From: a virus
Virus record (IMG/VR): IMGVR_UViG_3300042561_002062
Location: 21,525 to 85,524 of that record
Reading direction: 5' to 3' (one strand)
Length of the DNA stretch: 64,000 nt
Shown here: positions 10,301-55,184 of the stretch, one piece after another
Numbering within the stretch: the first letter of the stretch is position 1
How the letters are laid out: each line of letters begins with the position of its first letter
The notes under the pieces: model-generated
What the model was told of the DNA's origin: nothing
Database searches by the model: none
Seen by the model: the letters and a program-made list of their open reading frames with translations, nothing else
Translations under genes and position numbers: made by a program

Positions 10301-11179
10301 TTATCTTTTAAGGTCTAGAGTTATTTTGTCACCAGCTACTTGAGCTACATCTCCTTTACCTGATTGGTTGGAAATTTTGTTCAAATGAGCTTTGATTGAT
10401 TCTCTTTCTTTAGTATCACTTCCTGCACTAGTTAAACCATCAGTTATTGTGCTGTTTAGGAAGTCTTGTAATCCACCCTCAATATTATCATCCAAGTCTA
10501 GAATATCAGAGTAATTTTGAAGTCCTTTGATACATTGAACTATCAAACCTTCATCTGGATTTATATTCATACCTTTAGCTTTTCTCAGTGAATTAGCTAA
10601 TTGATTTATAGTTTCTGTAGAGAGTCCATTTATAAGGAACTCGTTAACTTGTATTCTTCCATATCTTTCCCACCAATTTGGTTCTTTTTTGGTTGTATCT
10701 ATCCAATTTAAATCTGTTGTTGATGGTTTGTATTTTTGGTCATCAACAATCAACATAAGAGCTTTATCTTGTCTCAAATTACCACCAGCAGCAGTTTCAT
10801 TAAGTGTTTCAATAAGTAAATCTCTCATAGACTTCAATCTTCCCTCTGCTACTTGACGGTTGATGGTGCCACCACCTGTATGTGAAGTTCCAACTTCAAT
10901 TAAGAAAATTGGTGGAACTTTATTCGAATTAGAATCACCTAGAAATTTTATAAGTTGCCCGAAATTTTGAAATCTAGCGATCATCTTTTTAAGAGATTCT
11001 TTAAGACTTGTCTTCAAGTTTGCCGTAAGTTCAAATTTTCCTTCGCCGAACATAACGTCAATACCATGACCTTCACCAGTTAAAACTACTTCTTCACCAG
11101 GAACTGGTGCGGTTTCTGCTGATTGCACTTCTTCTTGAGCTTCCTTAATGAATCTCAAATAGTTTTTTATTCTTTTCAT
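10301..11179 (-). CDS. OmpA-like-domain protein with capsid-targeting-like N terminus
   Basis: A 292-residue protein without a signal peptide. It starts MKRIKNYLRFIKEAQ, a basic amphipathic peptide ending in FIKE, very like the T4 capsid-targeting sequence MKTYQEFIAE that gp21 protease cuts after IxE. Residues 35-130 resemble a divergent OmpA C-terminal peptidoglycan-binding domain: FGEGKFELTANLKTSLKE, then PIFLIEVGTSHTGGG and NRQVAEGRLKSM, matching the usual GHTDxxG...NxxLSxxRA layout. The second half is helical and unknown. It is the last gene of an eight-gene leftward series. The OmpA match is by eye and is moderate only. An AT element (11197-11206) lies 18 bases before the start codon. 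Confidence 0.55.
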   Translation of the reverse strand: MKRIKNYLRFIKEAQEEVQSAETAPVPGEEVVLTGEGHGIDVMFGEGKFELTANLKTSLKESLKKMIARFQNFGQLIKFLGDSNSNKVPPIFLIEVGTSHTGGGTINRQVAEGRLKSMRDLLIETLNETAAGGNLRQDKALMLIVDDQKYKPSTTDLNWIDTTKKEPNWWERYGRIQVNEFLINGLSTETINQLANSLRKAKGMNINPDEGLIVQCIKGLQNYSDILDLDDNIEGGLQDFLNSTITDGLTSAGSDTKERESIKAHLNKISNQSGKGDVAQVAGDKITLDLKR

Positions 11180-11196
11180 ATTATATGTTTTTTTTT

Positions 11197-11206
11197 GTAT
11201 ATATTA
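11197..11206 (-). promoter_or_regulatory. Putative late promoter element TAATATATAC
   Basis: Read on the minus strand as TAATATATAC inside a T-rich context, 18 bases before the ATG at 11179. The same ten bases with nearly the same flanks occur at 14005-14014, and close variants (TTATATATAC) precede many other genes here. It plays the part that TATAAATA plays in T4 late promoters; this is inference from recurrence. Confidence 0.5.
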
Positions 11207-11211
11207 TTTTT

Positions 11212-11907
11212 TTAACTTGTTTTTTCTACTTTAGTAGGTGATATAGGTTTCAATGTGATAAAATCATCTAACTTTTCTCTTTTCTGCACTCCGTGTGGTG
11301 GTATGTGATCTCCTAATTTTTTTGATAAAACTTCTGATGTTATAGGACCATAAACACCATCGGAAGGTTTGATGTTGTTGTCCCGTTGAAACTGTATAAT
11401 AGCCCCTAGAGTAGAGCAACCATATTGACCATCTATACCATCTTTATTTGGTCCAAAATTACCGAGTATCTTTTTATATTTCCCACCATCTACTTGTGAA
11501 AGAGCTCTCTGTATTGTTTTTATTGATTCTATATCTTTACCTTGTGGAATATATTTTGATTTTGGAATAACACAATCTGTATCAATTAGTTTTATTGATA
11601 GTTTTTTTGTTGTATTATCGTCATATTTAAGATCCAGAATTACAAGATTATTGGATTTTTGAGAATTAACAAGGGTTCCCATTTTGTTGGTATTCATTTC
11701 TTTGAATCTAGTAACACCCTTATCATTTTTTGTGTAAAAATACCCATCCCAGATATTTTCTATTACAACTTTTATAGCTGTTATTTTTCCACTACGAGTA
11801 GTCCAGGTTTCTATATGCGCTTTTTGGTTTTCGAGTAGATTAATTAGACCATCATCAAAATTATGATAATCTTGTGAAAAATATTCAAACAATTTTATGT
11901 ATTTCAT
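11212..11907 (-). CDS. Protein with C-terminal peptidoglycan-binding (PGBD) domain
   Basis: A 231-residue protein. N terminus MKYIKLFEYFSQDYH is another short Lys/Ile/Phe-rich leader of the kind shared by neighbouring proteins. The middle (25-115) is beta-rich and unknown (ITAIKVVIENIWDGYFY). The C-terminal 90 residues match the PG_binding_1 fold: IKTIQRALSQ, GIDGQYGCSTLGAIIQFQR, then GVYGPITSEVLSKKL, with the typical GxxG...T..A...FQ pattern. It has no secretion signal, so delivery to peptidoglycan would require packaging or injection with the virion, or host lysis. Upstream spacing to the next gene is 12 bases. Confidence 0.7.
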   Translation of the reverse strand: MKYIKLFEYFSQDYHNFDDGLINLLENQKAHIETWTTRSGKITAIKVVIENIWDGYFYTKNDKGVTRFKEMNTNKMGTLVNSQKSNNLVILDLKYDDNTTKKLSIKLIDTDCVIPKSKYIPQGKDIESIKTIQRALSQVDGGKYKKILGNFGPNKDGIDGQYGCSTLGAIIQFQRDNNIKPSDGVYGPITSEVLSKKLGDHIPPHGVQKREKLDDFITLKPISPTKVEKTS

Positions 11908-11919
11908 ATAATTATTTTT

Positions 11920-13989
11920 TTATTCTTCTTTACCTACGAGCCACCTAGCGTAAGATTTAATATTTTCTTTTCTCCTTTCTCTTCTCTCCTTTTTATCAGA
12001 TTTATTTTTTTCTTCTTCATCTTTAATTTCTTCTTCTGAATCTTGAGACTCATTTTCTGCAGGTAAAGTTTCTAGATAGCTCTCTAAATAATTCCTAAAA
12101 TCAGGATCTCCAGTTTTTTCATATAAAGCTTCTATCGTCTTTTGATCTAATCTTCCAGAATCTTTAAGGTTATTATTTCTCTGAAATTCAGAAAGTGGCC
12201 AACTATAATCAGCAAATTTCATATTTTCATCTGCCGGCAAATCTATTGATGAGTCTATACTATCTAGAATTTTCCAGACTACTGTATTTATATCAAGTTG
12301 TGAAGGCAGCAAAGAATTTCTGTCTATTTCAGTAGTTCTTACAACTTCTGCTATATCTGATCTCTCTTCACTAGTAAGGTCGCCATAGGTAGGATCATTT
12401 TCATCCATAAGATCTGAACCACTACCCTCTATATTATCCATCATTTCTTCTATTTGTTCATCTGTGAGATTGTCTAATTGTTTAGCATCTTCAATTGTCA
12501 TTTCCTCATCTTGTTCTGATGCATTTTCTTCACTATCCTTAGAATCAAATATTGGACCTAGAAGAAACTTATAGAGCGCGGCGAATGGTTTGAATAGTGC
12601 GGCATTTAGTTTGATAGCATTTTCATGTGTTTTATAAAAAGTTTGAACAAAATCTGATTTATCTATTTCTTTTATAAAACTATTATTAACTTGAGTATCG
12701 ACCCAATATCTTTTATAAGCATCTAGATCCGAACCACTTAATTCCCTACCTCTTAATGCTCCTGAAGGATAAACAGGTTTATCGTATTTACCAGAAGACA
12801 TAGCATCATCAAATTGTTTTTCCCAGAAAGTTTTTAATTCACCACGCATAGCCGAGTTTGTGCCAGGTCCAGAACCTCTACCAACTACAACACGAGCTTT
12901 ATTAGATCCTTTATTGAGATCCATCAAAACAAATTCATCTGAATTCATTTTTACACCCCCTGTTCTAAATAATTTATTACTTCCACCTCTACTAGATTTT
13001 ATTATACCTTTTTCTGATTGTAGTGCTGAAAATTTTTCAAAGAGATTATCAAACAATCCAATTTTTTTAGTTCTTGGAAAACCCGGGAGCCTACGAAGAA
13101 AGGCTTTATATAATCTACCTAATGTATTTTGAGAAACAAATTTTATGACTTTTAAAGGTATTTTTACACCATATTTTACAAAACTAGAACTACTTCCTGC
13201 TATTATTTGTTTCAATTTTCTGAATGGCCAAAGAGCCATGTCCAGCATACGTTTGAAAAAACCTTTAATATTCGACAATACTGTTTTCAAAAAAGGAAAC
13301 TTATCTACACGTTCTTTTAACCAGTCTTCAAATTTTCTCATCCAACTTTTAGAACCACCACTACTTATTTCATCACCTAATTCCTTCTCGACTGTATCGA
13401 AATTCTTTGACACCAAATCTACGAATTTTTTTAGCGATTGATTCTTGGAAAGGTACTCAGATATAACCTTTGCAGAAGCGCCTGAACTTAGCCTTTTCAA
13501 TAATTCTCTGAATGGCTTAGAAATAGCTTTGAACAGGAATTGAATTGGATTCAAAGCAGGATGTGCGAATAATAAAGTTATCATACCAAAGGTAACATAT
13601 TCACTTCTTTTTTCTGGGTCTTCAACAAAATATGATTGAAGAAAATAAACACCCGCATGAAAAATATCAATAGCGGCACCGACGCCGGGATAGATAAAAT
13701 CTCCAACAATACCTCCTACGTCAGCAACAGTATGTAAAATATTTTCCAAAGACCAATCACCATCCGATGTTGTTCCAGTAGCGGTTTTGAGACCATTCCA
13801 GAAACTACCTAATCCACCAGACAAATCATCCCAAGCTTCCCCTGCCCAACTCAAAACTGATTCGTTAATATCTTCAAATTGATATCTATTTTCCAGATAT
13901 TTGAGAGATGAAATGTTTTCTCTATAAGATGTTTGATTCTCAAAGATGTATCCTTCTCTAAACTGATCAAATCTTAAAATATTACTCAT
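11920..13989 (-). CDS. Large unknown virion-type protein with hydrophobic segments and C-terminal PGBD-like region
   Basis: A 689-residue protein. Start MSNILRFDQFREGYIFE contains an IFE triplet and resembles the capsid-targeting-like leaders nearby. Residues about 80-165 hold two hydrophobic stretches (GIVGDFIYPGVGAAIDIF and FGMITLLFAHPALNPIQFLF) that could cross or insert in a membrane. Basic helical segments follow to about 330. A strongly acidic linker (about 500-570) leads to residues about 585-650, where WPLSEFQRNNNLKDSG and DQKTIEALYE resemble a PG_binding_1 repeat. The tail is extremely charged (EEEIKDEEEKNKSDKKERR). A membrane-plus-peptidoglycan architecture fits an ejected protein. 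No enzyme motif was found. Confidence 0.55.
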   Translation of the reverse strand: MSNILRFDQFREGYIFENQTSYRENISSLKYLENRYQFEDINESVLSWAGEAWDDLSGGLGSFWNGLKTATGTTSDGDWSLENILHTVADVGGIVGDFIYPGVGAAIDIFHAGVYFLQSYFVEDPEKRSEYVTFGMITLLFAHPALNPIQFLFKAISKPFRELLKRLSSGASAKVISEYLSKNQSLKKFVDLVSKNFDTVEKELGDEISSGGSKSWMRKFEDWLKERVDKFPFLKTVLSNIKGFFKRMLDMALWPFRKLKQIIAGSSSSFVKYGVKIPLKVIKFVSQNTLGRLYKAFLRRLPGFPRTKKIGLFDNLFEKFSALQSEKGIIKSSRGGSNKLFRTGGVKMNSDEFVLMDLNKGSNKARVVVGRGSGPGTNSAMRGELKTFWEKQFDDAMSSGKYDKPVYPSGALRGRELSGSDLDAYKRYWVDTQVNNSFIKEIDKSDFVQTFYKTHENAIKLNAALFKPFAALYKFLLGPIFDSKDSEENASEQDEEMTIEDAKQLDNLTDEQIEEMMDNIEGSGSDLMDENDPTYGDLTSEERSDIAEVVRTTEIDRNSLLPSQLDINTVVWKILDSIDSSIDLPADENMKFADYSWPLSEFQRNNNLKDSGRLDQKTIEALYEKTGDPDFRNYLESYLETLPAENESQDSEEEIKDEEEKNKSDKKERRERRKENIKSYARWLVGKEE

Positions 13990-14004
13990 AAAAGTTTTTT
14001 TTTT

Positions 14005-14014
14005 GTATATATTA
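14005..14014 (-). promoter_or_regulatory. Putative late promoter element TAATATATAC
   Basis: Same ten bases as at 11197-11206, on the minus strand, 15 bases before the ATG at 13989 of the 689-residue protein gene. The T-rich flanks are also almost identical, making chance similarity unlikely. Confidence 0.5.
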
Positions 14015-14019
14015 TTTTT

Positions 14020-14352
14020 TCAATCTAACAATCCTTCAACTGCTATCAGATAGGCGTCTTCGTAGGTTGGGGCAATACCGTCTGAGCTTGCAAAAATGAA
14101 TTGTGGATGTCCATCTTCTCCTCTTAGAAAATATTCAATTGTTACTTGAATTTGACCTCTATTATTTTTGAATGATTTTATCTGACAATCTCTACTCATT
14201 AAGTAGTCTTCTTCATAGACAAGTAACTTATTTTCTCTATCAAATTTTCTAAAATCTGATTTAGTTCCTATACCTCTTGTTTTCGTATATTTTTCTTCGA
14301 AATCGCGCTGTGTAATATCTTCGTTGGTTGTGAATGGTTTGATGTGTTTCAT
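14020..14352 (-). CDS. Small unknown protein with capsid-targeting-like start
   Basis: A 110-residue protein starting MKHIKPFTTNEDITQ, which follows the MKxIKxF pattern of neighbours. The rest is a single small alpha/beta domain: a strand-rich centre (IKSFKNNRGQIQVTIEYFLRG) and a C-terminal helix (TYEDAYLIAVEGLL). No family recognised. It sits 3 bases after the stop of the next gene upstream, so is part of the same leftward transcript. Confidence 0.6.
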   Translation of the reverse strand: MKHIKPFTTNEDITQRDFEEKYTKTRGIGTKSDFRKFDRENKLLVYEEDYLMSRDCQIKSFKNNRGQIQVTIEYFLRGEDGHPQFIFASSDGIAPTYEDAYLIAVEGLLD

Positions 14353-14355
14353 AGT

Positions 14356-15168
14356 TTAATAAAATGACATTTTTCTAAGGTCGTTAAATGTTGTAAGAAG
14401 GTAACTAACTTCCTTTTTTGTTGATTTGAATAAAATATCAACGATGTAGCAGGTATAATGAGGTGTTGTGGGTGTTATCGGCACAATATTTCTAGTTGTT
14501 ATGTTTATCGGGGCCGATATCTTATAAATAGTAATGGTTTTACTTGAAGTAGTCCAATATTTGGAACCCTGGTTTCCGGGCAAACTATTAGGCCCCTTCA
14601 AACTGGGTGTTTCCTCTGAATACATTCTATCACTTATAATTCTAGTCATATGTGAGAGTTCATTTTCAATCATAGGTATAACTCTGGAAGCATATAAAAT
14701 CTCTTGTCTTTTTTCTTTTGAGATAATAAATTTATTCGAGGCATTGTTGTAAAATTCTGATTCCCAGTCTCCTTCCTCTTCTTGTGTGGATGAAGAAGGA
14801 TACGAAGGTGTTGTTGGTTTTGCTGTTTGCCAGGCGGTCGATGATGGTGAGTTCTTAGCGGTCGATGCTGCTGGATAGGTATAAGACCCCGGATTATAAC
14901 TATAAGAATAGGTTCTTGGGCTAAATTTAGCTAAAAGATAAAAAACATTCTTATCTTCTCGAATAGAAACTTTACAATCGTGATTTCTTAGAGAGCCAAA
15001 GCACATATCATCTAGAACCTTGAAAGTTTTTTCTAAATATTCAACATTCTCTTCTTCAAGAAAATAGATTTGTATCCACCATTCTTTATCAATAGCAATC
15101 ACATCGAATTCTTCTATATTAGCTCTTTCGAGATCTAATTTTATTTTATCTTCTATTTCTGTAGTCAT
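14356..15168 (-). CDS. Unknown protein with Ser/Thr/Pro-rich linker
   Basis: A 270-residue protein in two parts. Residues 1-95 form an alpha/beta domain (VIAIDKEWWIQIYFLEEENV, then DCKVSIREDKNVFYLLAKF). Residues 95-140 are a low-complexity Tyr/Ser/Thr/Pro linker (SYSYNPGSYTYPAAST). A second domain follows with RQEILYASRVIPMIENEL and TPHYTCYIVDILFKS. It lacks the MKxI leader that most neighbours carry. No family recognised; gene order suggests a virion-associated role with the proteins either side. Confidence 0.55.
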   Translation of the reverse strand: MTTEIEDKIKLDLERANIEEFDVIAIDKEWWIQIYFLEEENVEYLEKTFKVLDDMCFGSLRNHDCKVSIREDKNVFYLLAKFSPRTYSYSYNPGSYTYPAASTAKNSPSSTAWQTAKPTTPSYPSSSTQEEEGDWESEFYNNASNKFIISKEKRQEILYASRVIPMIENELSHMTRIISDRMYSEETPSLKGPNSLPGNQGSKYWTTSSKTITIYKISAPINITTRNIVPITPTTPHYTCYIVDILFKSTKKEVSYLLTTFNDLRKMSFY

Positions 15169-15184
15169 TTATAGTCTCTTTTCA

Positions 15185-15946
15185 TTATTTTTTTAATAAC
15201 TCCATAGCTTCTTTGTCTTTCTTTCTTATTTGGTTGAGAACATATAAAATTTTTGTGTATCTCACTTTTCCATCATCACCCTTAATTTCTTCACCACCTA
15301 ATATTTTGTATAGATTATCAACTTGACTTGGATAAATTAGTTTTAATACTTCTTTATTTTTATAATCTTTGAAAGTATTGACAAAACTCCAATCTTCTTC
15401 GATTAAATCGACAAATAACTTCATTTTTTTTATCCATTGTTTGGAATATTCGTTAGCCCAATTATTCAATTCAGAATTTCCTGCTTTTTTCCAAGCCTCT
15501 TGTAATATTCCTGGTCTTTGAGTTACATCTTGAATACATCTATCTAGAAGTGTAACATAATCCATAGACGAATAAACGATAGTCTTATAAAAAGATTTAC
15601 AGATCACATCTCCACTTTTACCACCTTCCCATTCATAATCAAATCTCTTCTTCCAATTCATTATACATTCAGAAGTTAAATCATCCCATTCACCATTGGA
15701 TAACCCATTATAACCAGTTACCCTAACTCTATTTCGCATATAGCTCTGTATTTCAGCTATAAGTGCTTCATAAATATTTGAAGATTTAGTTTCGGAACGT
15801 GTAATGGTAAGTTTATCATTATAAGAATTCTCCAATACTCTCCACCAAGAAATATTATCATTAGAGGCGTAATAATATTCTTCCTTAATTGATCTTAGTG
15901 GGGATTTAAGATTTTCGTTTTTGAAATTATTGAAATGTTTTATCAT
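15185..15946 (-). CDS. Unknown helical protein with capsid-targeting-like start
   Basis: A 253-residue, mostly helical protein starting MIKHFNNFKNENLK and reaching SIKE at residues 19-22, an IxE triplet like that cut by T4-type prohead proteases. The remainder is Trp-rich (WKKRFDYEWEGGKSGDV, AWKKAGNSELNNWANEY). Its start codon overlaps the end of the preceding gene by 4 bases, a sign of translational coupling. No family recognised. Confidence 0.58.
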   Translation of the reverse strand: MIKHFNNFKNENLKSPLRSIKEEYYYASNDNISWWRVLENSYNDKLTITRSETKSSNIYEALIAEIQSYMRNRVRVTGYNGLSNGEWDDLTSECIMNWKKRFDYEWEGGKSGDVICKSFYKTIVYSSMDYVTLLDRCIQDVTQRPGILQEAWKKAGNSELNNWANEYSKQWIKKMKLFVDLIEEDWSFVNTFKDYKNKEVLKLIYPSQVDNLYKILGGEEIKGDDGKVRYTKILYVLNQIRKKDKEAMELLKK

Positions 15947-17148
15947 ATATGATTAGTGAATTGTTTGAAACTATGAATTTTTTTGGATTCTTTAGTAAGT
16001 TCGTATTTGATCTCGTATCTATATTTTCCGTCTGGTAGCTGGTAAGCTTTTTGGTCAATAATTTTTTTAGTCCTACCATCTATACCATCAAGTTTATTAT
16101 ATTTCTGCATTGCTTTTCTTTGAGCTGCAGCTTGATCTTTTGATGTATCTTCTAAAGTTCCAACAGAAGAATTTTTATCTTCTTTTTTCTCTTGTTGCTG
16201 ACCTGGTTGATTATTTTGATTATCTGCTTTTTCTTTTTCTACATACTTTACTGCTGGTTTATAGATAAGTGCTTGTGCGAATTCTTCAACCTTTTTCAAA
16301 GTTTCGGGAGAGACTTCAACACCTTTCAATTTGAACCTTTTACCAAGTCCAAATAGTCCTCTTTTCTTTAGTTGACCAGCATAATAAAAGTGTAAAAAAT
16401 AACTTAAATGATTATTTTCTTTAAGTGGAACATCTTCTGTGCATTCATTTGACTCTGGAATAAATTTGTAGTAGTGAATTTTATCACCTCTTTTTATTTG
16501 ATTGTCCTTTTGATTTTTCAATGAGGGTGCCCCGGCTTCTAGACCAGCACCTTTAAAATATAATTCCAAAATTCTACTATCATTATCGCTGATAGGCAAT
16601 TTAGACTTAACTACTATATCTACTTTTTTGACGTATTTAGAATTTCTATCATCTCTGTAATTTAGGTAAATATCACCACTCTTCACCATTTCTAAAATAG
16701 TATTATCTACTGATTTTTCATCACCAGAAGAAAACATCTTAGATTCTTCAGTTTTTTGAGCTTGTGCTTTTGGTTTTTCAGATGAAGGTGTTGTTGGTGT
16801 GGTGGTTGTTGGTGTCGTGGTTGTTGGTGCGTTGTTGTTAGTTGCTGGTGTTGCCCCTGCTGTTTTTTCTTGAGCTTTTTCACCTGATTCTTGGCATTCT
16901 TTCCTTTTTGGCGCATCAGAAGTTCTGGCATTGGGAAACTCTTTATCTAATATACAGATAGATTTTTGATATTTTTCTATAAAATCTTCACCTGATATGT
17001 TGTACCATTTTTTTGTTCCTTTTCTTTTAGCGTGCCAATTATCTGAAACTACTTTATATTCGAAAGGGTCACCTGCTCTAGTGTATATTTTAGATTCTTC
17101 AACCTCTTCGTTTATAGATCTCAAGAAATCATTCCATTTACTTATCAT
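15943..17148 (-). CDS. Unknown protein with capsid-targeting-like start and Thr/Pro linkers
   Basis: A 401-residue protein starting MISKWNDFLRSINEEVE, with an INE triplet at residues 12-14. Residues 105-125 form a Pro/Thr repeat linker (several TTTTPTTP-type units) between two folded domains. The first (25-90) includes WHAKRKGTKKWYNISG; the second begins near 145 and includes NTILEMVKSGDIYLNYRDD and LPISDNDSRILELYF. A second Asn/Gln/Lys-rich linker (about 310-345) precedes the C-terminal domain ending in KYRYEIKYELTKESKK. No family recognised. The modular linkers suit an extended virion or injected protein. Confidence 0.57.
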   Translation of the reverse strand: MISKWNDFLRSINEEVEESKIYTRAGDPFEYKVVSDNWHAKRKGTKKWYNISGEDFIEKYQKSICILDKEFPNARTSDAPKRKECQESGEKAQEKTAGATPATNNNAPTTTTPTTTTPTTPSSEKPKAQAQKTEESKMFSSGDEKSVDNTILEMVKSGDIYLNYRDDRNSKYVKKVDIVVKSKLPISDNDSRILELYFKGAGLEAGAPSLKNQKDNQIKRGDKIHYYKFIPESNECTEDVPLKENNHLSYFLHFYYAGQLKKRGLFGLGKRFKLKGVEVSPETLKKVEEFAQALIYKPAVKYVEKEKADNQNNQPGQQQEKKEDKNSSVGTLEDTSKDQAAAQRKAMQKYNKLDGIDGRTKKIIDQKAYQLPDGKYRYEIKYELTKESKKIHSFKQFTNHI

Positions 17149-17183
17149 ATAGATTTATTTTTTTTTATATATTAAAATTTTTA

Positions 17184-18380
17184 TCAGAAATCTGTATCTA
17201 TTTCGACATCTATTTTGTACTTCTTCGATAAATCTTGTAATCTAAACTCAACAGTATCGTAAAGGTCAAAATTACCCCTCATTTTCTCGATAATTTTACC
17301 CAACAATTCTCTATCTATTCTGTCTATCTGATTTTTGTAATACTGCTTAGCTGATGGATTGGCATAATTATAACCATCGACTTTTGTCTTGAGTGGATCG
17401 AATATATTTTTTTTCATATAGATTCTTTGTGCTTCCAACCAATTGGCAGCTGCGGTGTCGTCATCATTGAGTGTACCTTCAAATGAGCTCCAAACATCTT
17501 TAGAACCATCTTTAAAAAGCCCATCAATTAATAAAACTATATTCTTCAGGGCTACAAATATATCTGATGGGTCTAATTCTTTTACGTCAGCAGCAGCCGC
17601 TTCTTTTGCTTTTTTCCACGCTTCTTTGTCTACGGAGATGTATTTATCTTCACTTGATGGTGGGTCTCCAACACCAAAGTCGGCATCAACATCAATTTCA
17701 TAACTAGTTTCCCCTGTTTTATCTAACCATAGATATCTGTTATCACCACTAAGTGTGGCTTTTCTTAGTTCTGGCCAGACTTCTGTCAATAATTTTATGC
17801 CTACCATTTGATGATTCTTATTTTTGGAATTTCCAGAATCTATTGCACTTTGTATAAATTTTAAATCTTTACCTTTTTCTTTAGCTTGTATTAGTCCGTA
17901 GTTTTCACCATCTATAGTTATTGTAATATGTTTTGATATCTTTTCAGTTACATTACCATACCACCAACTATTTTTATCAAATTGATTTTTTCCGAAAAAA
18001 GCTTCTACGGCCTCTTCTTCTTTATCATGACGTATAAGAAAAGTAAAAATACTTGTCCATGCGCTAACGGCATATGGTCTGAAAAAATATTCGGAACTCG
18101 ATTCGTCATAAGATTTATTTATACTAGAAAAAATCTCATTCAAAATAGTATCCAGACCTTCATTAGAGGGTTCAGTTTTTGTTTCATCACTCTTCTTATT
18201 ATCAGATTTACTGTTTTCTGAACTTGATTGAGTTTCTTTTGTTTCACCAGATACTTCTTTTTCTTCCTCTGCTGCTTTGTCTATCCAATCAGCAGGTTTA
18301 GGATCGAAAGCTGGAATTTCTCCTAAATTTTCACCTTCTATTTCTTCTAAGAAAAGTCTATATTTTGCAAGATATCTCAT
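17184..18380 (-). CDS. Unknown acidic protein with capsid-targeting-like start
   Basis: A 398-residue protein starting MRYLAKYRLFLEEIEGE, with an LEE triplet at residues 11-13. A low-complexity acidic Ser/Glu/Lys stretch (35-75) separates this leader from a mainly helical body. The body includes WTSIFTFLIRHDKEEEAVEA, ITITIDGENYGLIQAKEKG, and a C-terminal region rich in basic and acidic residues. No family recognised. Its start codon lies 9 bases after the stop of the MORN-like gene and has no AT promoter element of its own, so the two are probably co-transcribed. Confidence 0.57.
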   Translation of the reverse strand: MRYLAKYRLFLEEIEGENLGEIPAFDPKPADWIDKAAEEEKEVSGETKETQSSSENSKSDNKKSDETKTEPSNEGLDTILNEIFSSINKSYDESSSEYFFRPYAVSAWTSIFTFLIRHDKEEEAVEAFFGKNQFDKNSWWYGNVTEKISKHITITIDGENYGLIQAKEKGKDLKFIQSAIDSGNSKNKNHQMVGIKLLTEVWPELRKATLSGDNRYLWLDKTGETSYEIDVDADFGVGDPPSSEDKYISVDKEAWKKAKEAAAADVKELDPSDIFVALKNIVLLIDGLFKDGSKDVWSSFEGTLNDDDTAAANWLEAQRIYMKKNIFDPLKTKVDGYNYANPSAKQYYKNQIDRIDRELLGKIIEKMRGNFDLYDTVEFRLQDLSKKYKIDVEIDTDF

Positions 18381-18389
18381 AATTTTTTT

Positions 18390-19070
18390 TTATTTTTTTG
18401 GGATAGTTCCCTTTATTTTATTTCCAGATGGATCTTCTCCCCAACCTTTTGGTTGGCCCTGATAATAATACATACTCGATAAAAATTCTCCATTTTCATA
18501 CCATCTCCAAATTCCTTCTCTTTTTCCAGAATTAATTATACCTTCTTCTGAAATTTTACCTCTAGTATCAAACATACGAACTCGGTATTTATCAGGTTTC
18601 CCATCCTCAAATTCTTTACTCATCTTACGACCATCCCTATAAAAAGTATCTCTACGGATAATAGTTCCATCTTCCCAATCCTCAACTTCTTTCTCAATCG
18701 GTCCAGTTTCAAAAGTTGTTACTACCAATCCATCCAACTTATCATTTACATAATATTTTTTTGTTTGAGATTTATTTTCATAATTCCATTCCTGCCAAAG
18801 TAAAATTTTATTGTTATTTGCATCATATTTTCCCCTTTTTATCGGTAATTTATTGCCTTTAGAATCTACTATTGTTTTATGGTAAGTTGTTTCTACTCTT
18901 GTTTTTTTGTTAAATTCAACTGGATTGCCCTCACTATCTTTAGAATATTCAATATCCGGATTTGTAGTATTTGGGTCATTAGCTTCTGATTCTAGAACTG
19001 ATAATCTGGAGGTAGGTCTAGGTTCTCCAAAAGTTTTGTTCCAAATATACCAATTTGTTAAAAATTTCAT
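18390..19070 (-). CDS. MORN_2/YwqK-like repeat protein
   Basis: I choose the ATG at 19070 (MKFLTNWYIWNKTFGEP), about 226 residues, because the upstream in-frame extension is low-complexity and would overlap the hpt promoter, and because this start repeats the leader style of neighbours. The body is a series of short antiparallel beta units: GLVVTTFETGPIEKEV, DGTIIRRDTFYRDGRKM, YRVRMFDTRGKISEE and GIWRWYENGEFLSSMYYY, the pattern of MORN_2 repeats found in YwqK-type proteins. These are protein-surface or membrane-associated repeats with no catalytic role. An AATATATATC element lies 7 bases upstream. Confidence 0.7.
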   Translation of the reverse strand: MKFLTNWYIWNKTFGEPRPTSRLSVLESEANDPNTTNPDIEYSKDSEGNPVEFNKKTRVETTYHKTIVDSKGNKLPIKRGKYDANNNKILLWQEWNYENKSQTKKYYVNDKLDGLVVTTFETGPIEKEVEDWEDGTIIRRDTFYRDGRKMSKEFEDGKPDKYRVRMFDTRGKISEEGIINSGKREGIWRWYENGEFLSSMYYYQGQPKGWGEDPSGNKIKGTIPKK

Positions 19071-19688: not shown

Positions 19689-20000
19689 ATGAAATCTATA
19701 CAAAAAACTAAATACTTTTTCGGTTGGGAAAACTGGAAATGGCTTATCAAAGAACTAGTTCATATCTATACAAATAAATCTAGTTTTTTCTCTAAAAAAA
19801 GAATTGAATCCAGTATTGCTTTTATTATTGGTCAGGTTGGTATGTTGTGGTTTTTATACGAACATATCCCCCAGTTAACTATATCAGATATTGTTTTATG
19901 GTCAGGTGTTGAATTTGCGATGGCTGGGTATATTGTAAATCAAATACAGAAAGAGAAAAAAACTGAAACTGTGGAAGAACCAAAACCAGAAGATATTTAA
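19689..20000 (+). CDS. Small membrane protein of unknown function
   Basis: A 103-residue protein starting MKSIQKTKYFFGWENWKW. Two hydrophobic segments (about residues 41-61, IESSIAFIIGQVGMLWFLYE, and 67-86, ISDIVLWSGVEFAMAGYIV) are separated by a short loop, and the C terminus is charged (QKEKKTETVEEPKPED). The hairpin topology would place both ends in the cytoplasm. A holin is conceivable from this shape, but no lysis gene directly follows in the same direction, so no function is claimed. Its stop codon overlaps the stop of the convergent peptidase gene. Confidence 0.6.
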   Translation: MKSIQKTKYFFGWENWKWLIKELVHIYTNKSSFFSKKRIESSIAFIIGQVGMLWFLYEHIPQLTISDIVLWSGVEFAMAGYIVNQIQKEKKTETVEEPKPEDI

Positions 20001-20950
20001 GTATTCGGTCTAGATGGTTGCTGTTTGAGTTTAGGTAAAAGTGTTGAACTATTAAGATTTCTAAATCTAGAGATGTTAGGTGCAGTTGGTTTTGAAATTA
20101 TTTTAGATGGTTGAACTCCGGTAGTTGTGGGCCCAGGGGGTTTTGTTAAGTATTCACTACTTTCAAAAGTGCCACCACTATCTAAAATATTCTGTAAATC
20201 TTCTTTTGTAAAATCACCTAAATATCGAGCAGGGAGAGGTTTGTCCTGAACTACTGGACCCGATGAAGATTTTACAGGTCGGTATTCCCAGTGCCACCAC
20301 TCATCGGTTGATTTGAAATCTCTAAGAACACTCGGGTTTACCCATCCACATTTTGGAGCGTTTTCAAAAAACCATCTATATACTGGATGTTTAAAAGCCG
20401 AGGCAATCAAAGAACGATTTCTATTCATCGAAGGTGGAACCCCCCAATGTATATCAACGGCTAAACCCCAACCATGATTCGATCGGCCAGCTCTTGCTGC
20501 ATTTCTAGTTTTTTTTCTAAGTGCTACCTGTCTTTCTAGACTTCGATAGGCATCTGTAAAAAAAAGTGGTTGCTTACCATCAAACTTAGCTTCTTCATAT
20601 AACTTCATGAGTTTATCCAACGCCTTTGAAGCGTCGAGCATTAGATAGGGAGCATCCCCTCCTAGATCTTTTGAAAGATGTTCATTTTTGACCATTTTAT
20701 CAAGTGGAACTCTTCCATTTCTAAAGTTTCCTACTGTTAGTGTTTTTATGCCATTTTCATTGATAGTATCCAAAATATAGTTCACGGGTATCTTATCGTT
20801 TGTGTATTCTGGGATGCCTGTTACTGATCTCTTTTTCAATTTGAATTTTGGGGGAGAGATCTTCGTAAGTGGATTCTTTAGAGTGATATTTGGTTTGAGA
20901 CCACCGAGAGCTTTTGTCGGATCAAAAGAATTAACGAGATTTTGTATCAT
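19997..20950 (-). CDS. M15/VanY-type peptidoglycan peptidase in the baseplate cluster
   Basis: About 317 residues from the ATG at 20950; an in-frame ATG at 20989 would overlap the previous gene more. The C-terminal half is a zinc peptidase of family M15 (D,D- or L,D-carboxypeptidase/endopeptidase). Zinc ligands are His159 and Asp166 in SNHGWGLAVD and His220 in DEWWHWEY, with Glu217 as the likely catalytic base, plus FFTDAYRSLERQ as the substrate-side segment. Residues 1-50 are basic and Pro-rich, perhaps a tether; the C-terminal 90 residues are a Pro/Ser/Thr-rich tail. It follows the gp5-like OB gene directly, where T4 has a lysozyme domain fused into gp5, so it is probably the tail-associated cell-wall enzyme. 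Confidence 0.85.
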   Translation of the reverse strand: MIQNLVNSFDPTKALGGLKPNITLKNPLTKISPPKFKLKKRSVTGIPEYTNDKIPVNYILDTINENGIKTLTVGNFRNGRVPLDKMVKNEHLSKDLGGDAPYLMLDASKALDKLMKLYEEAKFDGKQPLFFTDAYRSLERQVALRKKTRNAARAGRSNHGWGLAVDIHWGVPPSMNRNRSLIASAFKHPVYRWFFENAPKCGWVNPSVLRDFKSTDEWWHWEYRPVKSSSGPVVQDKPLPARYLGDFTKEDLQNILDSGGTFESSEYLTKPPGPTTTGVQPSKIISKPTAPNISRFRNLNSSTLLPKLKQQPSRPNT

Positions 20951-21701
20951 TCGGATTATTCTTTTTTTGTGTAGTTGACCAATTGTCACCCTTCTGATCT
21001 AAACTTTCTCTTTGCTGCTCTTTTATCGTTCTATTTGTTGGAACTCTCACGTGGTTGGATAAAAACTTATCTAATCGTAATGCTTGATATTTTAATAATA
21101 CTTCAACAATATTTGGTAGAGGAACCACTGGACCAGCAGCGTTTGAATAGGGGCTAGACAAAAGTGCGTTAACCAAACTATCCATCCAATCCATAAAATC
21201 AGTTCCTAATACAACTTGTTGATCGGCATCAGGGCTTCCAAGATTGAGTTTAGCTAAGTTATCTCTAAGATTGACATTGATATTTCCATTTTTTGTAATA
21301 TTAATATTTGAGAATTCATGATCTATTTTAAGACCCTCTGACTCACTTCGATAGATTTGTGTTTTATCATCTAAAAAAAGAGCCTTGAATGTAGGATAAT
21401 CTGATTGCTTCAGACTTTTGAGTTTATTTTCTAGATTGATATTGAAGTGCTCGGCATAGATATATTCAGGTAAGTAGGGATTACCCTGATCGAATACAAC
21501 CGACACTATTTTACCCACATCTGGGGCTGAAAATTCATTACCATTCAGATCTTTCCAAGGTGTAGCCCAGGGTATATTTTCGGTAGCTATATTTTCAAAA
21601 TAGAGTGGTATTCTTACTTTAACTCGACCAAGTCTTTTGGGATCGTTGTTGTCTTCTACAACACCTAAAAAAATCTTATTTGATATCTCTGGATTATGCA
21701 T
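20931..21701 (-). CDS. Baseplate hub gp5-like protein (OB-fold domain)
   Basis: A 256-residue protein whose first 110 residues match the N-terminal OB-fold domain of T4 gp5 and VgrG/Gp5 hub proteins: KIFLGVVEDNNDPKRLGRVK, then IPWATPWKD, GKIVSVVFDQGNPYLPEY. The following region (GLKIDHEFSNINITKNGNIN) is short and beta-rich, as at the start of the spike. T4 gp5 is 575 residues with a central lysozyme and a long triple beta-helix; here the lysozyme is missing and the helix is absent or very short, with the M15 peptidase gene overlapping its 3' end by 20 bases. It would form the hub interface with the gp27-like protein. Confidence 0.82.
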   Translation of the reverse strand: MHNPEISNKIFLGVVEDNNDPKRLGRVKVRIPLYFENIATENIPWATPWKDLNGNEFSAPDVGKIVSVVFDQGNPYLPEYIYAEHFNINLENKLKSLKQSDYPTFKALFLDDKTQIYRSESEGLKIDHEFSNINITKNGNINVNLRDNLAKLNLGSPDADQQVVLGTDFMDWMDSLVNALLSSPYSNAAGPVVPLPNIVEVLLKYQALRLDKFLSNHVRVPTNRTIKEQQRESLDQKGDNWSTTQKKNNPNDTKSR

Positions 21702-28440: not shown

Positions 28441-29910
28441 ATGAAAAAATTACGAAGATTAAACGAGGAATATGCAAGTCCTAAAATTCCAGTATCAGAA
28501 AGTTATTGGCTAAAAAGAGGAAAAATTGGAAAAGTCGTAGCTCTTTACACACACGACGATATGGATGGTATATTCTCAGCTATAGAAGTAAAGAAATATC
28601 TTTTAGATAAAGGATTTGAGATAAAAAAATACGGAATCCTAAATTATTCTGAAGGTTGGAGATATACTACACTCGATCCGGCGCTTATAAATATTGTTCT
28701 GGATTTTGCTAATATGCCTGGTGATGATAGAGATGATTTGATTGATTATTATCTAGATCACCATGGACTCTTTTCTGAAGAGCAGCTACAAAGATATAAA
28801 AAATCACCGGTTCAGAAAAAGAAAACTGGTTCAGCCTACGAGGCTATTTGTGATGCGCTAGGTGTTCGTAAAGATGAAATGATATTATCTGTTATTGATA
28901 TGATAGATTCGGCTAAATACCAAGATTATGGTATATCCTGGCAAAGACTACTAGACTATAATGTTCAAGATATGATAGCTTCTCCTAAAAGAAGACTTGA
29001 GTTTGCAGCTGCTTTTAATCAATTCTTGAAAAGATCCGATACCCAAACTCTTATTGAGGTTATTCATAATACAAAAGATTGCTCGATTTTTGGAATTTTC
29101 CAAATGATGAAAAGACTATACCCCGAAAATAATACTCACACTTCAGGCACTAGAAGAGGCCAAGGTAAAGATTTTGTTGAAGATTCTATTGAAAGACAAT
29201 CTATTATGAAGGGAAGAACCAGAGGATCGAGTAATATTAAAAAAGTTTATACAGATTATAGAGATTTTCGTAGAGATTGGGCCCCTGATGGAACCGTCAC
29301 TAGAATAGATGGTTACCAAGCTATTGGTAATCTAGTTTTTGTGCCATCAGGAACCTGGGCAAACACCCTGAAAGCTCGTTCAATCATTCAAAAAGATTCA
29401 ACAGAATCACGTTTTGATCTTGAAAATTACGCGCCGAAATTCATACTTATTCAATACGGTGCTACTCTTCAAGTTTGTGCCTACAACAAAATAGAAGAAA
29501 CCGAAGATTTACCCATTCTCAAATCCGGTCAAAAAGTAGATAATCTAGGAAAGTATATGACTGATCTATTGAAGAATTTCCAAAAAGTTTTAGGGTATTA
29601 TGACCCTGATACTTCAACAGGCCAAGATGAAATCACCGTATCAGGTGGTCACGGTGGTATTGGAACTATCTCAAATATTTTTGGCCGTTGTAAAAACGGT
29701 GGTCCATTTGACGGTATGAAATGGCTCGATTTATTTAAGAATAAAATAATCTCTGATCTATCGGGAGTTCCCTTTGATATGAACTTGATCTGGAGTGGTG
29801 AAGATTCTAAAAACCTTCGTGAGCCAGAGATGGATAACAAGGTAAGGAATATTGAAGACGTGAAAAGAGTATCACCAGAAGGTCGTATTTTACGTTACGG
29901 TGAATTTTAA
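28441..29910 (+). CDS. DHH-family phosphoesterase
   Basis: A 489-residue protein of the DHH superfamily. THDDMDGIFSA (residues 37-47) supplies the first metal-binding motif (H-x-D-x-D-G), VLDFANMPGDD the second, and YLDHHGLF (104-111) the DHH motif itself. GGHGGIGTISNIF near residue 400 is the C-terminal DHHA1 substrate-binding signature. Members include RecJ, NrnA nanoRNases and c-di-AMP phosphodiesterases; without a RecJ OB domain, an oligonucleotide or cyclic-dinucleotide phosphodiesterase is more likely. The first residues, MKKLRRLNEEY, match the leader shared with the head-type proteins, including an LNE triplet at 7-9. That raises the possibility that the enzyme is packaged. Substrate unknown. 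Confidence 0.85.
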   Translation: MKKLRRLNEEYASPKIPVSESYWLKRGKIGKVVALYTHDDMDGIFSAIEVKKYLLDKGFEIKKYGILNYSEGWRYTTLDPALINIVLDFANMPGDDRDDLIDYYLDHHGLFSEEQLQRYKKSPVQKKKTGSAYEAICDALGVRKDEMILSVIDMIDSAKYQDYGISWQRLLDYNVQDMIASPKRRLEFAAAFNQFLKRSDTQTLIEVIHNTKDCSIFGIFQMMKRLYPENNTHTSGTRRGQGKDFVEDSIERQSIMKGRTRGSSNIKKVYTDYRDFRRDWAPDGTVTRIDGYQAIGNLVFVPSGTWANTLKARSIIQKDSTESRFDLENYAPKFILIQYGATLQVCAYNKIEETEDLPILKSGQKVDNLGKYMTDLLKNFQKVLGYYDPDTSTGQDEITVSGGHGGIGTISNIFGRCKNGGPFDGMKWLDLFKNKIISDLSGVPFDMNLIWSGEDSKNLREPEMDNKVRNIEDVKRVSPEGRILRYGEF

Positions 29911-33047: not shown

Positions 33048-33677
33048 TTATATTATTTTTACCAAAAGACCTTTAGTTTTGATTAAATTTTCTAAATCGT
33101 CTTTCTTTAGAACTTTTTTAAAATCTTTATCTAACTTATCAAGATTTTGTAAATACCACTCATTTGCATTGGATGTATAATAAATCCACCTCGAATCGGT
33201 ATTTGAGAGCTCGATAGTTTTAGAGGTTAGCTTATCATAAAACTTTTTTACTTCATTTTGAAGTTTTCTTAATCGAACTTCATCCCATTTTTCGAGAGGT
33301 TCGTTCCAAACCTGGTAGATAATATAGAGAGGTTCTTCGAGATCGGTTGATTCTATTGGATAAATAAAACAAAATCTCATCGTTCTTTTCAAGAAAGTTT
33401 GATAATCGTCTGTATTTTGTAGTTGTGATTTTTTCAATCCTATCGAACGAAGAGAATTAAGAAAGAAAGGATCATCTAGAAGATTTTCTAAATTATCAGT
33501 AGATATTTGTGATTCTATAAGGTTAAACGTTTCAATCAGGTCAATATCTTCTTTCGAAAGCGCGTCAAGAACCAATTCATGCAGAACAGAAAGACTTTCA
33601 TTTAGATCGATAATATCAGTAGAAAGGTTTATTTCTAAACTTTCTAAAAAATCTTGGTAGCCGAGTAATGTTTTCAT
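33048..33677 (-). CDS. Unknown protein with capsid-targeting-like start
   Basis: A 209-residue protein starting MKTLLGYQDFLESLE, closely parallel to the start of its divergent neighbour (MLSNFELFLESLSQ) and to the T4 leader MKTYQEFIAE in length and order of Lys, aromatic, acidic residues. The rest is mostly helical with LSVLHELVLDALSKEDIDLI and a C-terminal KLDKDFKKVLKKDD. No family recognised. The starts of the two divergent genes are 27 bases apart. Confidence 0.55.
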   Translation of the reverse strand: MKTLLGYQDFLESLEINLSTDIIDLNESLSVLHELVLDALSKEDIDLIETFNLIESQISTDNLENLLDDPFFLNSLRSIGLKKSQLQNTDDYQTFLKRTMRFCFIYPIESTDLEEPLYIIYQVWNEPLEKWDEVRLRKLQNEVKKFYDKLTSKTIELSNTDSRWIYYTSNANEWYLQNLDKLDKDFKKVLKKDDLENLIKTKGLLVKII

Positions 33678-33704: not shown

Positions 33705-35072
33705 ATGCTTAGCAACTTTGAACTTTTTTTAGAATCTCTATCCCAAACTACCTATACGAATAAGAATATCGTGAAGGAAATATCGGTTGCGATGTGTATT
33801 ATCAACCCAGAATTCCTAGATAAAATCCTTGATCTAGGTCTTAGAGCTCGATATACTGAAAATTCATCGATTTATCTTACAGACTTGAAATCTTTACTTC
33901 TAAATAAAAACAGATTGAAACTAGGAAAATTTGTTGAAGATAAATGTCAAGAAGATACCGAAATATCCAAAATAAACTCTCTTTTTGAGGGTGTAGATTT
34001 TTCTTTCGAGAATGATTTCGGTGTGATATCTGATTCTAGGACTTGTAGTAGAAATATTTGTGATAAACTTATTCTACCTGACAAGCTAACGCCCCAGATG
34101 GTCTCTTGTGTTTATTGGATTGGACCTAATAAAACAAAAGATTTCTCAGAAGATCTAGTAGTAGAGTTAGTAGATGGTCGTCAGTTTTCACTCTTTTTAG
34201 ATAAAAACTTTTCAGCTACCAAAAGTTCTTCTTTTCAGACCTTTACAGATCAAATTATACCTAAAGAAGTAAGTAATCTTTATTCAGAGAGTTATATCGC
34301 AGGATGGAATAAACTTGTTCAAACACTTGTTGGTATTATCTACAAATACGCCACCTCAAATAACAAAGCTCATATACAGAAGTTTATCGCGCCTGATAGA
34401 ATACCCACTCTTGATTGGTTTGGATATTTCAATATCAAACATTCTGATAAGAGATATCAAATTTTAGGTGAATATCTTCGTGAGTTCGATAAAAATGTAG
34501 TATGGTTTTCTGATCTTATCAACTTGATATGGAAAAACGGAGAAAGTGCTCTTTCTGATTACAAATCTGCCAGATCTGAATGGATACGTGCAAAATCAAT
34601 CATCTTAAACTCAAGAATACTCGAACATACCTTAACACAATCCTTAACTCGTCATAATCGTCAAGATATCTCAAGACTCAAATCAGGCATGAAACTCGCT
34701 AAAGGGGTAGCAAAAATGAAGTTTGTTAAAACAATAGTTGAAAAACTAGGATGTCTTGAAAGAGATGTTATCTTTGTTGGAAAAAAAGGTGATGATTTTA
34801 CTCACGTTCCAAGTAGATCTTTCTTTAGAGAGCGTTACGAAGATCTAGATATTAAGTTTGATTACCACGTTAATCTTACTTCACTCGATACACAGACAGA
34901 TGGTGATTTCAAGTTTTTAGTTCAACTTTTCTTAAAAAGAAAAAAACTTCTTGATCTAGAGATAAGTATAGGATTCACCGGATATCTTTCAGAAAAACTA
35001 AGAGCTCGTTTTTCATTCACACCAGTAAGTGATTTCAACCTTAAAGTTTCATCCAATCCATCAGAAGATTGA
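33705..35072 (+). CDS. Unknown 455-residue protein with capsid-targeting-like start
   Basis: Starts MLSNFELFLESLSQTTY, similar to the leader of the divergent neighbour. The body has no recognised domain. Notable segments are VSCVYWIGPNKTKDFSEDL, a charged middle with SLTRHNRQDISRLKSGMKLA, and a C-terminal beta-rich end (YHVNLTSLDTQTDGDFKFLV, LEISIGFTGYLSEKLRARF). The last, DLEISIGFTGYL to FSFTPVSDFNLKV, resembles a small beta sandwich. A virion-associated or injected role is inferred from the leader only. Confidence 0.52.
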   Translation: MLSNFELFLESLSQTTYTNKNIVKEISVAMCIINPEFLDKILDLGLRARYTENSSIYLTDLKSLLLNKNRLKLGKFVEDKCQEDTEISKINSLFEGVDFSFENDFGVISDSRTCSRNICDKLILPDKLTPQMVSCVYWIGPNKTKDFSEDLVVELVDGRQFSLFLDKNFSATKSSSFQTFTDQIIPKEVSNLYSESYIAGWNKLVQTLVGIIYKYATSNNKAHIQKFIAPDRIPTLDWFGYFNIKHSDKRYQILGEYLREFDKNVVWFSDLINLIWKNGESALSDYKSARSEWIRAKSIILNSRILEHTLTQSLTRHNRQDISRLKSGMKLAKGVAKMKFVKTIVEKLGCLERDVIFVGKKGDDFTHVPSRSFFRERYEDLDIKFDYHVNLTSLDTQTDGDFKFLVQLFLKRKKLLDLEISIGFTGYLSEKLRARFSFTPVSDFNLKVSSNPSED

Positions 35073-54893: not shown

Positions 54894-55184
54894 ATGAAAA
54901 AGATTAAAAGATTAGACTTTTCTAAACCTCTAAACGAAAGCGAGGACTATAGCTTGGATGTTACAAGAGAAAGGATTAAGACCATACTTACAAGAATGAT
55001 AGAGGATATCGGCCAAGTAGGTGAAAGTGCAGATATATTGAATAAATACACCGAAGAGCTTAGTGAGTGTTTTAATCTTTGCTCGAACAATAAGTGGAAA
55101 TCTCTTGAAAGAGACCTTACACGAATGTTCGATTCAGATGTAAGAGTTGGCCTAGCTCTTTTGGATACGATCAGGAAGCATTGA
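54894..55184 (+). CDS. Unknown helical protein with capsid-targeting-like start
   Basis: A 96-residue, mostly helical protein whose start MKKIKRLDFSKPLNESEDY resembles the leaders at 10-19 kb and 28 kb, with an LNE triplet at residues 13-15. The helical part has RIKTILTRMIEDIGQVGESA and FNLCSNNKWKSLERDLTRMF. It lies far from the main head-type block, suggesting the leader marks proteins scattered over the genome. Confidence 0.52.
   Translation: MKKIKRLDFSKPLNESEDYSLDVTRERIKTILTRMIEDIGQVGESADILNKYTEELSECFNLCSNNKWKSLERDLTRMFDSDVRVGLALLDTIRKH

Follow-up and report, generated by a model that had tools for sequence, protein, structure and literature searches.

We analysed a 64,000-nucleotide stretch of viral DNA (the window), which covers bases 21,525-85,524 of the 149,524-bp IMG/VR virus contig IMGVR_UViG_3300042561_002062 (G000 below). 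Most proteins of a leftward gene cassette at 10301-19070 of this window begin with a similar short N-terminal peptide, here called the leader. The leader is a genuine feature that occurs far more often than expected by chance, and it is a trait of a whole set of huge phages that extends well beyond this cassette. The reading that tagged proteins are packaged in the head by a capsid-targeting leader of the T4 kind, cut by a gp21-type protease and injected with the DNA is well supported by sequence, and we put its probability at roughly three in four. The literature searched contained no account of this leader for huge phages.

The leader is a genome-wide trait

Among the called genes of G000 we recognized no terminase, portal or polymerase, and we therefore regard this contig as a fragment. 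A tail protein encoded at 26086-27906 of the window has its top matches in the largest known phages, followed by Chryseobacterium, Tenacibaculum and Prevotella Lak phages. In the order of this match, the relatives are LR745206 (W02, 635 kb), LR756502 (W01, 642 kb), LR756504 (W04, 636 kb) and LR756501/503 (W03, 735 kb), with W01 and W02 being complete. The phages of 634-735 kb have been assigned to the Mahaphage clade, with Bacteroidetes as predicted hosts (Al-Shayeb et al., PMC7162821).

Genes were called as simple longest open reading frames (ORFs). An unsupervised two-component expectation-maximization (EM) analysis of N-termini, performed separately on W01 and W02, recovered the component M-[KR]-[HY]-[LI]-K-x-[YF]-x-x-F-E. 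At p>0.9, 150 genes of W01 and 117 of W02 were assigned to it, compared with 0/557 and 0/509 internal-methionine controls. We trained a leader motif model on W01 and W02 alone and set its threshold at 5.15, the 99% point of the internal-methionine controls, so that 1% of internal methionines reach it. Since G000 was not used for training, it provides an independent test, and the same is true for W03, W04 and the IMG/VR loci described below.

On G000, 17 of 190 ATG genes were marked (0.7 expected) against 2 of 528 internal-methionine controls. Further leaders lie on this contig outside the window, at positions 4939, 99247, 110587, 115440, 120016 and 139558. An earlier reading of the window from its letters alone (the sequence-only reading) had suggested that the leader marks a genome-wide protein set, and these counts confirm it. 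The transferred model marked 35 genes of W03 (3.4 expected) and 61 of W04 (8.3 expected), each scored over 400 kb; across the relatives, 7-20% of the genes were marked. A scan of IMG/VR with a DNA pattern of the leader yielded 30 further stretches, in which, bait genes excluded, 42 of 220 other genes were tagged compared with 2 of 817 controls. The density of tagged genes can be high locally: between 20000 and 40000 of LR756502, 24 of 37 genes are tagged, many of them with a recurring D-I-L-L-x-L-x-D-D-G-F segment as an expanded tagged family.

The end site of the leader

In an initial EM with two blocks, the fit collapsed onto one 10-mer, and we therefore tested the end of the leader separately from the leader model. 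A hydrophobic residue, any residue and glutamate, followed by one of [SNDAGT] and located behind the aromatic anchor, was counted and compared with composition-preserving shuffles. This site was found at a frequency of 0.55 in W01 versus 0.21 in shuffled sequences (z 12.6) and was likewise enriched in W02 (z 10.2), W04 (z 6.8), W03 (z 3.5) and G000 (z 2.6). No comparable enrichment was seen with Asp, Lys or Ser at the glutamate position.

The sequence-only reading had proposed (L/I)xE, the site cut in T4. Counted simply over residues 10-45, this strict motif shows no clear enrichment (W01 0.41 vs 0.34; W02 0.39 vs 0.39); its enrichment became visible only after anchoring the end to the leader and widening position P3. 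Anchored in this way, [LI]xE exceeds the shuffles in all five genomes (z 9.6 in W01, 6.5 in W02, 7.0 in W04, 3.8 in W03 and 3.3 in G000). The proposed motif is thus present, but the predicted site is wider, and hydrophobic-x-E is the better description of it.

Single families show the same picture. In the family of the 455-amino-acid (aa) protein at 33705 of the window, all 18 distinct leaders close with E, and the next residue is always A, S, K or T, while the leaders vary in length and sequence. In the 2H phosphoesterase family represented at position 110587 of G000, 93% of 42 distinct N-terminal regions contain [LIVMF]xE versus 33% after shuffling (0/500 shuffles), and 81% versus 22% contain [LI]xE. 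A few members of this family, such as one starting MSEKQT-YDYGC, have no leader at all, which indicates that the leader is modular. The W01 and W02 proteins with a DHH-like motif carry leaders ending in FINE/E (the slash marks the end of the leader here and below).

Prohead protease and capsid

A gp21-like prohead protease, which the sequence-only reading had named as a gene to look for, was not found on the contig fragment, but a gp21-type (S77) match was found in 8 of 8 relatives searched, in four of them over the Pfam cut-off. For the W01 protein, the match to head maturation proteases in PHROG is 6e-28. Proteins matching the gp23-type capsid are also present in all eight. The predicted capsid propeptide ends are HQINE/N (W01), HSINE/N (W02), HQMNE/N (W03), HQIHE/N (W04), INE/N (PTm1) and LNE/D (Lak), and a similar site occurs near the N-terminus of the protease itself (LIRE/G, LIRE/N, KINE/A, KVNE/S). 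In LR756502 (225272-227371), LR745206 (198546-200669) and LR756501 (73913-76336), the gp21-type ORF is 699-807 aa long with a long acidic C-terminal part and perhaps represents a protease-scaffold fusion.

What we regard as the most telling single observation comes from two tagged proteins of 81-84 aa, W01:80294 and W02:93266. They appear to be capsid-arm mimics that consist of the leader followed directly by the mature capsid N-arm (phmmer 7e-6 to 9e-7): the mimic reads MKHLKNYKSFNE/DATANASTAGMGGVSPAQPGVLPGTTG..GSGDV, the capsid HQINE/NAYVNASNVAGMGQVIAAGPSILPGATIG..GSGDV. Since the mature arm starts immediately behind the leader, the leader end coincides with the predicted capsid cut site. 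These genes lie at LR756502 80294-80539 and LR745206 93266-93520, and there are others at LR756502 542908-543423 and LR745206 554784-555284; in these small proteins the capsid arm comes directly behind the leader or an ILE site. As internal proteins, they might dock into the lattice of the capsid.

Short proteins (157-196 aa) with similarity to the N-terminal portion of the capsid protein are encoded at LR745206 291407-291880, LR756502 315773-316270 and LR756501 276342-276932 and may be capsid-derived paralogues. On G000, outside the window, a 300-aa protein (C1:127474-128376) has a partial-length match to major head proteins (PHROG 1.2e-7, PF07068 1.5e-8); the contig has no other recognized head genes.

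Tagged proteins and alternative explanations

Tagged proteins include a T4-Rnl1-type RNA ligase (in both W01 and W02), a CCA-adding enzyme, DHH and RNase_T proteins, PPK2 and a phage lysozyme. On G000 itself, an Acb1-like 2H phosphoesterase and a PNK-like P-loop kinase are tagged, the latter with untagged relatives in W01 and W02. The 2H protein matches PF23474 (Acb1) with 4e-7, over the cut-off, both of its HxT motifs are invariant, and Acb1 in the PDB is matched with 0.0012; the 2′-5′ RNA ligase profile gives a similar value (2.5e-6). The cultured Maribacter phage Molly has a 2H protein without the leader, and the main text of the paper describing this phage contains no mass-spectrometry data. 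We also considered whether the basic/aromatic N-terminal extensions reported for rpS21 of huge phages are this leader; this was rejected, since rpS21 is untagged in W01-W04.

The leader could be an address other than the head, such as a phage-made compartment, the membrane or a replication factory, with the conserved glutamate end forming a binding surface instead of a cut site. Aromatic/basic amphipathic N-termini could conceivably bind many partners, and leaders are found on enzymes that could act late in infection. But the end site is specific for glutamate and agrees with the capsid propeptide ends, and the mimics join the leader exactly at the predicted capsid cut site. Moreover, a replication compartment should contain DnaB, and this protein carries no tag: its leader score is below the threshold, as are those of terminase, portal, sheath, protease and capsid. 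We consider this explanation unlikely.

Similarly little weight can be given to the idea that tagged proteins do reach the prohead through the leader and lose it there by cutting, but serve in the assembly core or the structure and are then broken down or retained in the head, as are T4 gp22, gp67, gp68 and gp24, with no injected effectors among them. T4 core proteins also open with short leaders ending in xE (gp22 MLKEQLIAE, gp24 MAKINELLRE), and the capsid-arm mimics look structural. Against this stand the 100 or more tagged genes per genome, the many enzymes among them and their poor conservation: between W01 and W02, a homologue in the other genome was found for a fraction of 0.27-0.31 of the tagged but 0.51-0.52 of the untagged proteins. 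In addition, among proteins with a length of 230 aa or more, 81 tagged ones matched only 25 Pfam families, compared with 130 for 81 untagged ones. Taken together, these differences give the tagged set an accessory profile, to which effectors are the better fit.

Finally, simple gene calling was used and short N-terminal motifs are easily over-read, but chance, a gene-start artefact or a nucleotide-level 5′ element (a translation signal or a recombination seam) is very improbable, because the controls lie 10- to 100-fold lower, the conserved leader residues are encoded by varying synonymous codons, which places the signal in the protein and not in the DNA, and the leader is retained across orthologues of about 45% identity.

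The cassette at 10301-19070 and leaders elsewhere in the window

The cassette had been described as eight leftward proteins, most of them with a leader. It comprises nine leftward ORFs (Table 1), six of which exceed the threshold compared with 11 of 191 genes elsewhere on G000 (Fisher p=1.1e-5). In one further gene (15943) the motif can be made out by eye, and no leader is present in 14356 or 18390. The leaders of 10301, 11920, 15185, 15943 and 17184 terminate cleanly in hydrophobic-x-E. The four leaders that had been pointed out elsewhere in the window, at 28441, 33048, 33705 and 54894, are all real.

Table 1. Genes of the cassette and further tagged genes of the window (slash, end of the leader; model threshold 5.15)
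Coordinates	Strand	Product	Leader	End site	Leader score	Remarks
10301..11179	-	292-aa cargo candidate	MKRIKNYLRFIKE/A (11141-11179)	FIKE/A	7.5	
11212..11907	-	231-aa cargo candidate, peptidoglycan-binding domain	MKYIKLFEYF		9.6	PG_binding_1 6.6e-8
11920..13989	-	689-aa cargo candidate	MSNILRFDQFRE/GYIFE/N (13939-13989)	FRE/G or IFE/N	7.3	
14020..14352	-	110-aa cargo candidate	MKHIKPFTTNE (leader-like)	atypical	7.5	
14356..15168	-	270-aa cassette protein	none		-11.1	
15185..15946	-	253-aa cargo candidate	MIKHFNNFKNENLKSPLRSIKE/E	IKE/E	5.3	barely over threshold
15943..17148	-	401-aa cargo candidate	MISKWNDFLRSINE/E (17107-17148)	INE/E	3.4	below threshold, motif by eye
17184..18380	-	398-aa cargo candidate	MRYLAKYRLFLE/E (18345-18380)	FLE or LEE	8.0	
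18390..19070	-	226-aa cassette protein	none		-0.5	
28441..29910	+	489-aa protein, DHH-like DMDG motif	MKKLRRLNE/E (28441-28467)	LNE/E		40% identical to LR756501 protein
33048..33677	-	209-aa cargo candidate	MKTLLGYQDFLE/S (33642-33677)	FLE/S		W01, W02 orthologues retain leader; E12, S13 invariant
33705..35072	+	455-aa cargo candidate	MLSNFELFLE/S (33705-33734)	FLE/S		18 distinct homologues with leader
54894..55184	+	96-aa protein	MKKIKRLDFSKPLNE/S (54894-54938)	LNE/S		motif by eye

Peptidoglycan-binding or OmpA-like regions had been suggested for three cassette proteins. This holds for 11212; the PG_binding_1 match of 11920 is marginal (Pfam 0.0054, below the cut-off). For the 10301 protein, no Pfam or PHROG family, no OmpA match in Pfam and no PDB match was obtained, and a single-sequence AlphaFold model (pLDDT 38) was unusable. 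The cassette proteins yielded no informative homologues; the 689-aa protein had no match in the phage collection, and in IMG/VR only a near-identical contig was found. These three proteins had been noted to have no secretion signal, and no strong hydrophobic signal stretch is seen at the cassette N-termini. With one solid peptidoglycan-binding domain behind it, delivery of this cassette to the cell envelope is weakly supported.

Beside the cassette, at 19997-21701, a VanY/M15-type peptidase gene adjoins a gene for a gp5-like OB-fold baseplate hub, probably forming a tail-associated wall-cutting pair. Next to the tagged gene at 28441, the 465-aa protein encoded at 29907-31304 is highly conserved in W01, W02 and W03 (1e-179 to 1e-109); its C-terminus shows weak pentapeptide repeats, and a clean end of a leader is missing.

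Proposed mechanism and its significance

The core idea of the sequence-only reading, a T4-type capsid-targeting leader with a gp21-type cut site on a genome-wide protein set, stands up as a sequence-based prediction because of the enrichment of the leader, its glutamate-specific end, its conservation in orthologues, the match to the capsid propeptide, the protease in the relatives and the lack of tags on replication and structural proteins. From these features we infer docking, cutting, packaging and injection in the following order. During head assembly, the leader would dock many otherwise unrelated proteins into the prohead core. A gp21-type prohead protease would then cut after hydrophobic-x-Glu at the leader end, and the mature proteins would remain in the head alongside the DNA. 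This cargo would enter the host at infection and be active ahead of all phage gene expression. The genes at 10301-18380 would represent one cluster of such cargo; elsewhere it would include RNA-repair and likely counter-defence enzymes (RNA ligase, CCA-adding enzyme, PNK-like kinase and Acb1-like 2H phosphoesterase) as well as some cell-wall-active proteins.

Several points weigh against this interpretation. We found no virion proteomics for any of these phages, and more than 100 different packed proteins would far exceed known T4 practice. On the window's contig, a fragment of 150 kb, neither a protease nor a portal is recognizable, and the capsid cut site is itself deduced from sequence. The prevalent W01/W02 ends FNE, YNE, IFE and LFE fit strict (L/I)xE only in part, some leaders, including those of 11212 and 14020, have no clean end site, and many tagged proteins lack an assigned function. 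The protease also occurs in Lak, PTm1 and MA9V phages, but these have no comparable leader set, with calls near background (Lak-C1 10/409 at a control rate of 1.6%, PTm1 5/275, MA9V-2 3/192). T4 ipI (MKTFKEF), although similar in style, scores 2.45 in the W01/W02-trained model and hence below 5.15.

Extending the interpretation to the whole group, we lean towards the view that huge Bacteroidetes-type phages carry a pre-made head proteome of about 7-20% of their genes (more than 100 proteins in the 635-642-kb phages), which shares one cleavable leader, is injected with the DNA and includes RNA-repair and anti-CBASS-type enzymes acting before host defences. If this is true, dozens to well over a hundred ready-made proteins may enter with the genome, RNA repair and anti-CBASS activity possibly among them, and the few injected proteins of T4 would be extended to a systematic delivery strategy. 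A simple N-terminal rule would then predict which of their many uncharacterized proteins the largest known phages deliver as they enter, turning long lists of hypothetical genes into testable effector candidates. As compact tags, the leaders would also be candidates for directing proteins into large phage heads.

Comparison with known systems

Proteins carrying the capsid-targeting sequence of T4 are inserted by it into the precursor core, and the sequence suffices to package foreign proteins as well (PMC3012670); every internal head protein of T4 uses it (PMC5694885). The injected proteins Ip1-3, which block Type IV restriction, have only this leader in common (PMC12373910). Like Ip1, Ip2, Ip3 and Alt of Tequatrovirus, the proteins described here share a short N-terminal leader while being otherwise unrelated; in both cases the leader ends in hydrophobic-x-Glu and the cargo is accessory with fast turnover, and matches to a gp21-type protease and a gp23-type capsid are present in the relatives of G000. 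The differences concern scale, sequence and setting. T4 has few cargoes (at least 10 internal proteins across its relatives, PMC12373910), whereas here tens to more than 150 genes are tagged. The consensus is MK[HY][LI]Kx[YF]..FE instead of MKT[YF]xEF, with P3 widened to F/Y/V/M. Unlike T4, the carriers are huge Bacteroidetes-type phages whose predicted cargo contains RNA-repair enzymes and an Acb1-like enzyme.

SPN3US and phiKZ likewise pack many ejection proteins in a large head, process them with a gp21 relative after x-x-Glu and then eject them. In contrast to the phages studied here, they have no common short leader on a large protein set: SPN3US cuts at AxE, mostly removes long propeptides (about 20 to >250 residues) and has only eight processed proteins (PMC5694885). 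With the anti-CBASS 2H phosphoesterase Acb1 (T4 57B), the tagged 2H protein of G000 shares the Pfam fold family and both HxT motifs, but adds a capsid-targeting-type leader; it is about equally close to the 2′-5′ RNA ligase family and is Acb1-like by sequence. A T4-type mechanism operating at a much larger scale is the parsimonious reading, and we would class the system as T4 capsid targeting in a greatly expanded form.

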